Source of the DNA: Firmicutes bacterium TM09-10
GTDB lineage: Bacteria; Bacillota; Clostridia; Lachnospirales; Lachnospiraceae
Direction of reading: 5' to 3'
Length of the DNA: 64,000 nt
Assembly (NCBI GenBank): GCA_003481005.1
Contig: QUKC01000015.1
Span: 27,314 to 91,313, forward strand
This document shows positions 11,041-16,388 of this stretch, piece after piece. Positions within the stretch are counted from its first letter, which is position 1, and each line of letters begins with the position of its first letter. The position numbers were made by a program, and so were the translations under genes. Under the pieces are notes generated by a model, which had not been told where the DNA came from, ran no database searches, and saw nothing but the letters and a program-made list of their open reading frames with translations.

Positions 11041-11113
11041 GCGACAGTAGTACAGTTGGTAGTACGCCACCTTGCCAAGGTGGAGGTCGCGGGTTCGAGC
11101 CCCGTCTGTCGCT
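11041..11113 (+). tRNA. tRNA-Gly (anticodon GCC)
   Basis: 73 nt cloverleaf: acceptor GCGACAG/CTGTCGC with U discriminator, D-arm with AGTTGGTAG, anticodon stem CCACC/GGTGG around TTGCCAA, T-arm GCGGG-TTCGAGC-CCCGT. The 3' CCA is not encoded. Confidence 0.97.
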
Positions 11114-11131
11114 CTTCTAAAAAGCCAGTAA

Positions 11132-11389: not shown

Positions 11390-11418
11390 TTGACAATTTT
11401 TTTTCCCGGAACTAGAAT
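11390..11418 (+). promoter_or_regulatory. Promoter of the T-box/cstA transcript
   Basis: TTGACA (11390-11395), 17 bp, TAGAAT (11413-11418). Start expected near 11425. Confidence 0.8.
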
Positions 11419-11424
11419 GGCAAC

Positions 11425-11725
11425 AATTCAACATGCAAATGCAGTGAGCAGGACATGACATTTAGAGTTAATCTGTTTCCAGAGAGCCGCCATTGATGGA
11501 AGGTGGCAACAGGTTCCAAATGCCCTCGCCTGTCAGCAGTTCTGGTGAACGTTTTTCCAGTAGTCAGAACCGGAATCCCTCCGTTACAGGGGAGCACATT
11601 GACCGGATCAAATGCCGGGAGCTGTGACCGAGAGGCTGCTTTTTGCAGCAAAAGAAGTGGTAACGCGGAGTTTATATGCCTTCGTCTTCTATTCCCCGAA
11701 AGGGATAAAGACGAAGGCTTTTTTT
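11425..11725 (+). promoter_or_regulatory. T-box leader with terminator, upstream of cstA
   Basis: About 300 nt leader with the T-box hallmarks in order. The Stem I distal motif is AGAGAGCCGCC...GGTGGC. A stem CAGGAC/GTTCTG is flanked by AGTGA on the 5' side and GTGAAC on the 3' side. Next come CCGTTA, then the T-box bulge GTGGTAACGCGG (11658-11669), then the terminator GCCTTCGTC (11678-11686)/GACGAAGGC (11710-11718) with TTTTTTT. Uncharged tRNA binding would favour the antiterminator and read-through. The specifier is not firmly resolved: GTT (Val) directly after GAAC is my best reading, AAC (Asn) the alternative. Confidence 0.88.
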
Positions 11726-11867
11726 GTTGCAGCGACAGGAAAACGAATTCGGGCTGTCCGATATTCACCGCGCCCGAACAAATCCTATCCCCCTGCAGAA
11801 AAACTCCGGGCAGGTCGCCCACGCACTGCCATGTTGAGCATTCTAACGAAAGAGAGGAACCTATCTC

Positions 11868-13805: not shown

Positions 13806-15008
13806 TTATTCTGCCATCTTTTCCTGAAGCACTTCCATCGCTTTATTCAGCTGATTGTCCGTACCGTCTTCCACATATGCCTGAGCATCAAATTCAACCT
13901 CCACATCCGGTTCAATACCAATCTTATGGATGTTGTTGCCCTTCGGCGTGTAATACTTGCTGACTGTAAGCTTCACTGCGGAATTATCGGTAAGCTGCAT
14001 AATCCGCTGTACAATGCCTTTTCCGTAAGTCGTCGTTCCAACCAGAGTTCCGATTCCGTAATCCTTTACTGCGCCGGACATAATCTCCGAAGCGGAAGCG
14101 CTGTTTCCGTCTACGAGGACAACGAGCGGAACCTCTAACGGATTCGTACCATCGCAGGAGTATTCTTCCCGGTTTCCGTATTTATCCTCCGTGTATACAA
14201 TCAGTCCTTTCGGGAGCAGCTCCCGGCAGATATCGCATACCGTCGAAAGGTTTCCGCCCGGATTTCCTCTCAGATCGATAATCAGACCTTCCATGCCTTC
14301 AGAACGGGCATTGTCCAGGGCTTCCGTAAACTGATCCAGCGTCACATCGTCGAACTCCTGAATCTGGATGTAAGCCATGCTGTCATCCAGCATCTTTGAC
14401 GTAACCGTTTCGTTTGCGAGCTTACGCCGAACCACATCAAATTCCAGATAATTGCTCTCGCCGCTGCGGATCACCGTCAGGTGCACGGTTGTGCCTTCCT
14501 CACCCCGGATCAACGCGACTGCGGAAGAAAGATCCATTCCCTGCAGCTCCGTATCATCCGCCTTATACAAAAGGTCGTTTGCCATCAGCCCGGCTTCCTC
14601 CGCCGGCGTTCCTGAAATTACGCTTGCAATCTTCGGAAGCTGCGTTTCGGTATCCAACGAAACCCTTGCGCCGATTCCGTAGTAGATGCCCTGCGTCTTT
14701 TCCTGCAGCGTTTCCAGCTCATCCGCTGTATAATAAACGGAATACGGATCGCCCAACGCATCCAGAAGTCCTTTGTATACCCCCTGCTCCAAATCCTCTG
14801 CGCTGACGTCCTCGAGATAATAATCGTCGATCATTCCTTCCAGCACATTGACCTTTTCCATCGTCGTCTTGTTGCCGACCTCTTCCAGGGAGCTACCGTT
14901 CTTCGTTCCCTGATACAGGGTCACGCCGACAAATGCGCATCCACCAACTGCAAGGGTCAGGACTGCCCCGGCAATCAGGCCGCCTGCAAAAACTCTCTTA
15001 TTCTCCAT
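13806..15008 (-). CDS. ctpA: S41 carboxyl-terminal processing peptidase
   Basis: 400 residues. An N-terminal membrane anchor (about 6-30) is followed by a PDZ domain (YYGIGARVSLDT, TPAEEAGLMANDLLYKAD) and the S41 protease core with LRGNPGG, the serine motif DGNSASASEI (Ser about 303-305) and the general-base Lys in TTTYGKGIVQ (about 330). These proteases act outside the membrane on tails of secreted or membrane proteins; in Clostridia they also mature cell-wall hydrolases and sporulation factors. The start at 15008 is chosen because GGAG lies 9 bases upstream. Immediately downstream of the ftsEX-M23 block in the same direction, so an envelope-remodelling role is likely. Confidence 0.9.
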   Translation of the reverse strand: MENKRVFAGGLIAGAVLTLAVGGCAFVGVTLYQGTKNGSSLEEVGNKTTMEKVNVLEGMIDDYYLEDVSAEDLEQGVYKGLLDALGDPYSVYYTADELETLQEKTQGIYYGIGARVSLDTETQLPKIASVISGTPAEEAGLMANDLLYKADDTELQGMDLSSAVALIRGEEGTTVHLTVIRSGESNYLEFDVVRRKLANETVTSKMLDDSMAYIQIQEFDDVTLDQFTEALDNARSEGMEGLIIDLRGNPGGNLSTVCDICRELLPKGLIVYTEDKYGNREEYSCDGTNPLEVPLVVLVDGNSASASEIMSGAVKDYGIGTLVGTTTYGKGIVQRIMQLTDNSAVKLTVSKYYTPKGNNIHKIGIEPDVEVEFDAQAYVEDGTDNQLNKAMEVLQEKMAE

Positions 15009-15113
15009 TGATGTCTTCTCCATATTGATGCTATTTCATTCATTTTATGTTTGCCGAAATCATTCGAAATCCGCTGATTTACTGTGTAAATCGCTACTTT
15101 CTCATGATTTAAC

Positions 15114-15168
15114 GGGAACGTCAGACATAAAATTGGATGCAAGCATCCATTTTATGTTCGCCGTTCCC
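15114..15168. repeat. 55-bp imperfect hairpin
   Basis: GGGAACG pairs with CGTTCCC, ACATAAAAT with ATTTTATGT, and GGATGC with GCATCC around a 2-4 nt loop. It sits between the M23 gene and ctpA. No T-run follows, so it is not an ordinary terminator. Confidence 0.6.
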
Positions 15169-15173
15169 TCGGC

Positions 15174-16388
15174 TCATTTCAAATAGTTCCACGGGCTGAC
15201 GTAGCTGCCGTTGCTTCTCACAGAAAAGTGCAGATGCGGTCCTGTCGAGCGTCCGGTCGAGCCGACCGCAGCGATTGTCGCACCCTTACTCACGGACTGT
15301 CCCGTTGAAACATATAGCTTCGACGCGTGCATATAAATTGTATACAATCCATCGCCGTGGTCGATCATGACATAATTGCCCATCGAACTGTTGTAAGACG
15401 CCGCTACTACGTTTCCACTGTATGCCGCCAGAATCGCCGTTCCGCTCGGTGCCGCAAAATCCACGCCGTTATGGAATTTCTGAACCTTCAACGTCGGATG
15501 CATCCGGTTGCCGTAATCATCCGAAATCCTGGTATAGCCCGGACACGGCATCTGGAACATACCGCCGTCATATTTTAAGCGGTTTTCCTCTTCGAGCTTT
15601 GCCTTATCCGCCGCAACTGCCTTTTCCAGAGCAGCGATCGTCGCATTCTGTGCCGAAATATCCGCCTCGTATTCCTTGATTGCAGCCTCCTTATTGCTGA
15701 TATCGCCCTGATATGCCACAATCTGCTGCTCTTTCTCGGAAATCAGCGTATTGACCGCCTGCTGCTCCTTTTCCAGGCTCGCCTGTGCGGTGTTTAAAAC
15801 GTCTTCTTCCTCTTCCAGTGTCTGCTTACACAGCTCCAGATATTCCACGCTCTGACGGTACTCTTCCAGCTTGCGGCTGTCGTAGCTGCTTAGCTGTTCC
15901 ACATAACCTGCCTGGTTTAACATATCTGCAAATGAGCCTGCATTCACCAAAAGCTCGAGGTATCCGTTGCCCTTGCTGTTTCGATACAGATAGCGCAGCC
16001 GGGTTTTCATATCCTCATACTGCTGATCTGCAACCGCCTGCGCCTGTTCAATATCCGCTTTCGTTTCTTCAATTTCCGTTTTTTTGGCTGTGATCTCTTC
16101 TTCCAGATCTTCGATCTTATTTTCCAGATCATCCAGCTGACCGTCCAGCTGCGCCACATATGTTTCCAGATCCTTCTTCGACTTCTGCAGCTGGCTTACC
16201 ATCGACTTAATATCGGAAATGTTGGACTGGATCTTCTTTTTCTCCGACTGCGCGTCGCTGATCGCCTGCTGCTTCTGCTTGATGCTCTCCTCAAGTGCAG
16301 TGGATGCCTGAACAGGAATCATCGATGTAAAAAGAAGCAGCGCTGCCGATAAAAGGCAGGCTGTGATTCTTTTTTTCCCAATTTTCAT
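15174..16388 (-). CDS. Secreted coiled-coil M23 peptidoglycan hydrolase (FtsEX partner)
   Basis: 404 residues with a signal peptide (MKIGKKRITACLLSAALLLF, cleavage near VQA). Long coiled coils (about 30-120 and 175-270) follow, then a LytM/M23 metallopeptidase domain. The zinc ligands are visible as His306 and Asp310 in FHNGVD and the HLHF pair near 380. This is the EnvC/PcsB-like arrangement: the coiled coil docks on FtsX and ATP hydrolysis by FtsE switches on the hydrolase for septum cleavage. Gene order supports this, since ftsX ends 13 bp upstream and ftsE lies beyond it. Domain calls are firm; control by FtsEX is inferred from synteny. Confidence 0.9.
   Translation of the reverse strand: MKIGKKRITACLLSAALLLFTSMIPVQASTALEESIKQKQQAISDAQSEKKKIQSNISDIKSMVSQLQKSKKDLETYVAQLDGQLDDLENKIEDLEEEITAKKTEIEETKADIEQAQAVADQQYEDMKTRLRYLYRNSKGNGYLELLVNAGSFADMLNQAGYVEQLSSYDSRKLEEYRQSVEYLELCKQTLEEEEDVLNTAQASLEKEQQAVNTLISEKEQQIVAYQGDISNKEAAIKEYEADISAQNATIAALEKAVAADKAKLEEENRLKYDGGMFQMPCPGYTRISDDYGNRMHPTLKVQKFHNGVDFAAPSGTAILAAYSGNVVAASYNSSMGNYVMIDHGDGLYTIYMHASKLYVSTGQSVSKGATIAAVGSTGRSTGPHLHFSVRSNGSYVSPWNYLK

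Follow-up and report, generated by a model that had tools for sequence, protein, structure and literature searches.

Introduction

CstA and BtsT of Escherichia coli (TC 2.A.114) are pyruvate/H+ symporters, and a narrow specificity for pyruvate is described for the first and stated for the second (PMC7730263). The controls described for E. coli cstA are CRP and CsrA, whereas the gene of the same family analysed here lies behind a T-box. In related Clostridia, the T-boxes of ileS, leuS and leuA have the same Stem I architecture and the same specifier position, at which they read ATC, CTC or CTG; they precede synthetase and biosynthesis genes, while the present T-box precedes the gene of a carrier. 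The LIVCS (BrnQ) carriers are likewise transporters under a branched-chain amino acid T-box (PMC2494555), but they belong to a different protein family, and the name CstA has no occurrence in the main text of that survey of T-box-controlled transporters.

One relevant case was found in the literature on T-boxes together with cstA, carbon starvation or keto acids: Bacillus methanolicus MGA3, in which the element (T-box)-cstA1 places a T-box before a carbon starvation protein gene (PMC4342826). It shares this arrangement with our locus, but differs in that no amino acid is assigned and in that its authors, on the basis of RNA-seq, regard the T-box as a probable remnant that may not regulate cstA1. 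The available text of two further reports (PMC3766115, PMC10521354) holds nothing on a T-box before cstA, and the CstA of another (PMC10715087) is a sulfurtransferase; a prior listing in TBDB or in older T-box surveys (PMC2271356, PMC2650889) is possible. The stretch of DNA described below (the window) covers 64,000 nucleotides of Firmicutes bacterium TM09-10, and its leader is an ordinary T-box on an unexpected, informative target.

Anatomy of the T-box leader

The original prediction, made from the sequence, placed a complete T-box before cstA, and this observation is confirmed. A search of the whole window with the Rfam family RF00230 returned a match directly 5' of the CstA gene, accompanied by a promoter, an antiterminator and a terminator (Table 1). 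Its score barely exceeds the curated gathering score (94.0 versus 93 bits), yet the match is well beyond chance, since the same Stem I stands upstream of cstA in 49 of 80 relatives, which had been selected by CstA protein alone, and this stem is supported by covariation. The Stem I bulge presents a specifier codon, CTC, and the antiterminator exposes a UGGN bulge and competes with the terminator.

Table 1. Features of the T-box–cstA locus in window coordinates, with T-boxes of other genomes given by locus
Feature	Position	Strand	Basis
Sigma-A type promoter	11390-11418	+	-35 TTGACA 11390-11395, -10 TAGAAT 11413-11418, 17-nt spacer
T-box leader RNA, Stem I to antiterminator	11435-11692	+	RF00230, 94.0 bits, E 2.7e-19
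Stem I region, model R1	11427-11544	+	96 bits (window itself among the 37 sequences used to build R1); covariation support
AGTGA, basal part of Stem I	11443-11447	+	
Lower helix CAGG / CCTG	11449-11452 / 11529-11532	+	Consensus fold
Distal AGAGAG motif of Stem I	11481-11486	+	
Specifier codon CTC (Leu), followed by G11528	11525-11527	+	Covariation-defined loop, TBDB position rule
Stem II hairpin, GTGAAC ... AGTAGTC	11545-11565	+	GTGAAC at 11545-11550; placed by RF00230 match
CCGTTA	11581-11586	+	
Antiterminator	11653-11690	+	Fold; 7-nt TGGTAAC bulge at 11658-11664
GTGGTAACGCGG	11657-11668	+	
Intrinsic terminator and T run	11679-11725	+	Stem 11679-11717, T run to 11725
Ribosome-binding-site-like AGAGAGGAA	11851-11859	+	Sequence
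CstA-family carrier gene, 566 aa	11868-13568	+	PF02554; directly 3' of the T-box
Next long ORF after cstA	13806-15023	-	Other strand from cstA
T-boxes linked to PanS-like genes	L186:2572-2816; L187:2524-2783; L188:1052-1289; L189:2528-2787	-; -; +; -	ATC read in alignments

From the proximal to the distal end of the transcript, the putative promoter, which agrees with the consensus at 11 of 12 bases, is followed by Stem I, Stem II, and the pair of alternative structures. The TGGT of the antiterminator bulge would pair with the ACCA end of a tRNA. The terminator rests on the predicted fold of positions 11679-11728 (-20.3 kcal/mol), being absent from the output of a simple terminator scan. Its 5' arm overlaps the 3' arm of the antiterminator in the predicted fold, so that the two structures are mutually exclusive. 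The motifs AGTGA and GTGAAC had been taken for the two sides of the specifier loop; the former is indeed within basal Stem I, the latter in the Stem II hairpin, and they are therefore not the two sides of one loop.

The specifier codon

In the consensus fold of 37 leaders, the 3' side of the window's specifier bulge reads CCCTCG. Counting from the 3' end of the bulge, TBDB gives bases 2-4 precedence as the specifier (PMC7778990), and the specifier of the window is thus CTC, a leucine codon. The original prediction had tentatively proposed GTT (Val). This candidate was rejected: covariation delimits a loop whose end is CTC-G, the RF00230 match places GTGAAC in the Stem II hairpin, and the codon columns of 50 cstA leaders hold no valine codon. 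We give a valine specifier practically no credence.

The same reading was applied to other T-boxes, using the same columns of R1, a covariance model of Stem I built from 37 aligned cstA leaders. Control T-boxes came from six related genomes (10 from one, 63 from the other five), of which 40 were taken as loci; R1 matched 38 of these, with no match in L087 and L145, and gave two further, spurious rows. The 29 downstream proteins were picked after the codons had been seen, and were named by NCBIfam or Pfam. The codon was correct for 23 of the 23 downstream genes with an unambiguous amino acid, which comprise valS, ilvB, ileS, leuS, leuA, tyrS, asnB, glyS, metN, metG and cysE as well as TrpX-like and trpB-like genes; the trpB-like protein was named by Pfam PALP only, and several proteins, cut at the locus end or scoring under the NCBIfam cut-off, were named by best match. 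Two low-scoring T-boxes gave other results: at L089 (24 bits), before a gene judged by eye to be thrS-like, the codon was misread, and at L090 (21.5 bits), before a sodium:solute symporter gene, it was one base off.

Leaders of related cstA genes

The relatives are the best 80 of 162 found by the CstA protein alone, giving 81 cstA genes with that of the window. The leaders for R1 were chosen by a script accepting only ATC, CTC or TTC, which took 46 of 50, and 37 of these 46 were aligned; the codon columns of all 50, including the four missed by the script, were later read without this limit. Searching the window and the 80 relatives with R1 (E up to 0.1) gave 51 matches, of which one is a different T-box (L026) and the remaining 50 are cstA leaders; the leader is thus present at 50 of the 81 cstA genes. 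Its specifier is ATC (Ile) in 32 cases and CTC (Leu) in 18, with no other codon, a pattern that fits a branched-chain amino acid T-box regulon, in which orthologues keep a specifier for Ile, Leu or Val. Codons for Val, Phe, Thr, Asn or Ser ending in C, each a single base away from ATC, are found in none of the 50. At 16 of the 20 consensus pairs, at least one of the 37 aligned sequences is changed on both sides with pairing kept. The motif AGTGGTANCGCG occurs in 50 of 50 leaders, 113-328 nt upstream of the start codon, and in 43 of them a run of five T follows within 140 nt.

The specifier loop was also compared along its 5' side. The textbook T-box feature AGTA is found there in none of the 50 cstA leaders, while ATG is found in all 18 CTC leaders and in 2 of the 32 ATC leaders. 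Loop and codon look as if they had been adjusted to each other, shared descent being an alternative.

R1 matched no leader at the remaining 31 cstA genes, even at relaxed cut-offs, and in 11 of these that were searched with Rfam at the gathering score, no T-box was found 5' of cstA. In three Faecalibacterium relatives (L014, L021, L035), inspection by eye indicates that the T-box body is gone and that a terminator-like remnant with GCARCGCGG stands before cstA.

The distribution of leaders was followed on protein trees. When each of the 81 CstA proteins on a tree is scored as ATC, CTC or leaderless, 19 changes are required, and the states are clustered, none of 200 shuffles needing as few. On a more careful tree of the 50 leader-bearing proteins, parsimony counts 7 switches between Ile and Leu, and at least four are forced by well-supported branches. 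Beyond the close relatives, a class-wide sample of 391 genomes was searched with the leader model, and the 30 best matches were examined as loci. Three are at cstA, all reading ATC, though one is the L029 gene, which is part of the model's own training set; the other two encode proteins about 55% and 56% identical to that of the window over the part available. Among the 27 others, 19 look by eye like ileS, ilvB, leuA, ilvC, ilvN or cimA. A separate sample of the class provided 30 other clostridial CstA proteins with the best PF02554 scores, 29 of them 34-46% identical to the window's and one (L119) 59% identical. No T-box was detected upstream of any, L119 included, with R1 at E up to 1 or Rfam at E up to 1e-5. 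Comparison across genomes thus shows the leader with its Leu or Ile specifier, repeated switching within this pair, and absence from the other CstA proteins sampled.

These data bear on the view taken for B. methanolicus, by which the T-box would be left over from a transcription unit since displaced, without control over cstA. The ground for that suggestion was an interruption of RNA-seq coverage (PMC4342826), which would, in our reading, also be expected of a T-box in its terminating state. The leaderless relatives and the Faecalibacterium remnants speak for this view, but 50 conserved leaders with compensatory changes, and a specifier confined to two codons through repeated switches, argue against it, and a relic seems to us very improbable.

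The carrier and its surroundings

The protein encoded downstream is a member of the CstA family (471.6 bits against PF02554, for a cut-off of 27) and is shorter than E. coli CstA, with 566 residues against 701. In an alignment to the NCBIfam model of E. coli-type CstA (NF011590), its residues 2-354 match model positions 33-383 with a score of 222.1 bits, far below the equivalog cut-off of 1188 that marks the E. coli-type pyruvate/proton symporter. Of the 120 matches listed by a homologue search, nearly all are close relatives with 83-99% identity. No solved structure was found by sequence. The structure model has a mean pLDDT of 62.1, too low for reading a binding site, and Foldseek with this model gave weak matches to LeuT/APC-type proteins such as AgcS (E 3.6e-5), which we take as no more than a hint.

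The transcript probably carries cstA alone, because the next long ORF is on the opposite strand. Comparing by eye the longest ORF of at least 150 aa near the gene end at the T-box loci revealed no common downstream partner gene, 4 of the 49 loci having too little 3' sequence. As to a mobile origin, searches in megablast mode gave no near match for cstA in plasmids nor for the leader in phages. The tRNAs within the window are limited to tRNA-Gly and tRNA-Gln; the former (gcc, 11041-11114) lies on the strand of the T-box and ends about 275 nt upstream of its promoter. A Clostridiales-1 small RNA (RF01699, 65.6 bits) is located at 15026-15176 on the minus strand, between two long ORFs of that strand.

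Proposed function and cargo

We consider it likely that this attenuating, leucine-sensing T-box induces the CstA carrier in leucine shortage and that the carrier serves the supply of branched-chain amino acids, most likely by importing amino acids or 2-oxo acids. The leader would sense uncharged tRNA-Leu (anticodon GAG), and leucine shortage would lead to antitermination and so switch on a secondary carrier of the CstA subfamily; in relatives, the same leader would sense tRNA-Ile or tRNA-Leu. Because the switch of the relatives reads leucine or isoleucine, this branch of CstA probably imports branched-chain amino acids or the 2-oxo acids that directly precede them, the direction of transport and the cargo being deduced from the control. 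The 31 of 81 cstA genes that have no leader, and the leaderless L119 gene with its 59% identical product, count against this reading, as do the narrow pyruvate specificity of E. coli CstA and the probable remnant in B. methanolicus. The original prediction had suggested that the cargo may be an amino acid or peptide, and the argument for a link to an amino acid and not to plain carbon supply is strengthened by the 50 conserved leaders; taken as a whole, its interpretation is partly supported.

One alternative is that the cargo is pyruvate, the substrate of E. coli CstA and BtsT (PMC7730263, PMC12632267), and that branched-chain shortage induces the carrier since valine, leucine and isoleucine derive their carbon from pyruvate. 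Pathway genes were searched in the genomes of 35 of the 80 relatives, 24 with the leader and 11 without. The route from pyruvate exists in most hosts: a strong IlvC match (E below 1e-70) is found in 30 of the 35, and IlvC is over the cut-off in 33 if three partial matches of 21-22 bits are included. IlvD was found in 20 of the 24 genomes searched for it. The four genomes without IlvD (L029, L008, L056, L079) all have an Ile T-box at cstA and occupy two separate places on the CstA tree; L029 has no IlvC match, and the other three have partial matches only, scoring 20-22 bits, of which two narrowly pass the cut-off. All four encode a branched-chain aminotransferase that exceeds the NCBIfam cut-off; acetolactate synthase is present in L029 and missing in L008, L056 and L079. 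L029 is a complete chromosome, the other three being draft or metagenome assemblies in which gaps are possible. A further genome, L017, which has no T-box at cstA, has IlvD but no strong IlvC match.

With IlvD and a strong IlvC missing, and the Ile T-box and the aminotransferase kept, pyruvate as a precursor cannot explain the control of cstA in these four hosts: imported pyruvate should not yield isoleucine there by the usual route, and the control points instead to an amino acid, a 2-oxo acid or a peptide. A cargo other than pyruvate is therefore plausible, and pyruvate itself seems to us unlikely. The labels given to CstA proteins of gut Firmicutes, carbon-starvation carrier or pyruvate carrier, come from distant homology; the conserved Ile/Leu T-box leads to a different and testable prediction, that this subfamily feeds branched-chain amino acid pools. 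The T-box also offers a means of splitting the CstA family by function, and the subfamily may help to explain how gut species that lack ilvC and ilvD are supplied with isoleucine and leucine.

A cargo of peptides with a high content of branched-chain residues would satisfy the same control, and older reports, quoted in PMC7730263, link the CstA family to the utilisation of peptides by E. coli, Salmonella and Campylobacter. In competition tests, however, E. coli CstA was later found to be pyruvate-specific (PMC7730263), and control by Leu and Ile only is not what one would expect of a general peptide carrier, which makes a peptide cargo rather improbable.

Other carriers of the same hosts were examined. 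PanS carries ketopantoate, a branched 2-oxo acid. Five of the 24 T-box genomes contain a strong PanS-like protein of the bile acid:sodium symporter family, four scoring near 300 bits and one 223, all below the 400-bit cut-off. At four of these five genes, in gut Firmicutes, a T-box with an ATC (Ile) specifier is found.

A tentative, more specific version of the cargo proposal is that this CstA subfamily carries the branched-chain 2-oxo acids 4-methyl-2-oxopentanoate and 3-methyl-2-oxopentanoate, larger analogues of pyruvate that the retained aminotransferase IlvE would convert to leucine and isoleucine, the PanS-like carriers under Ile T-boxes then forming a parallel second route. It draws on these Ile T-boxes and on the finding that E. 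coli CstA is specific for pyruvate (PMC7730263), and we treat it as a possible lead, and no proof.

A complementarity between BrnQ and the T-box-controlled CstA was considered and rejected: BrnQ is above the cut-off in 20 of the 35 genomes, 12 of 24 with the T-box and 8 of 11 without, and no clear complementarity emerges.

T-boxes elsewhere in these hosts add some minor observations. A. colihominis (L029) has a Leu T-box at leuA and an Ile T-box before a cupin regulator and a gene that resembles, by eye, that of an AMP-binding enzyme. Cupin-domain regulators under Ile (ATC) or Val (GTC) T-boxes were found in two genomes that have neither IlvD nor a strong IlvC match (L085, L121:4508-6750 on the minus strand, L141 and L146); two are beside or fused to an AMP-binding enzyme. 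These loci possibly represent a pathway by which branched-chain fatty acids are turned into amino acids.
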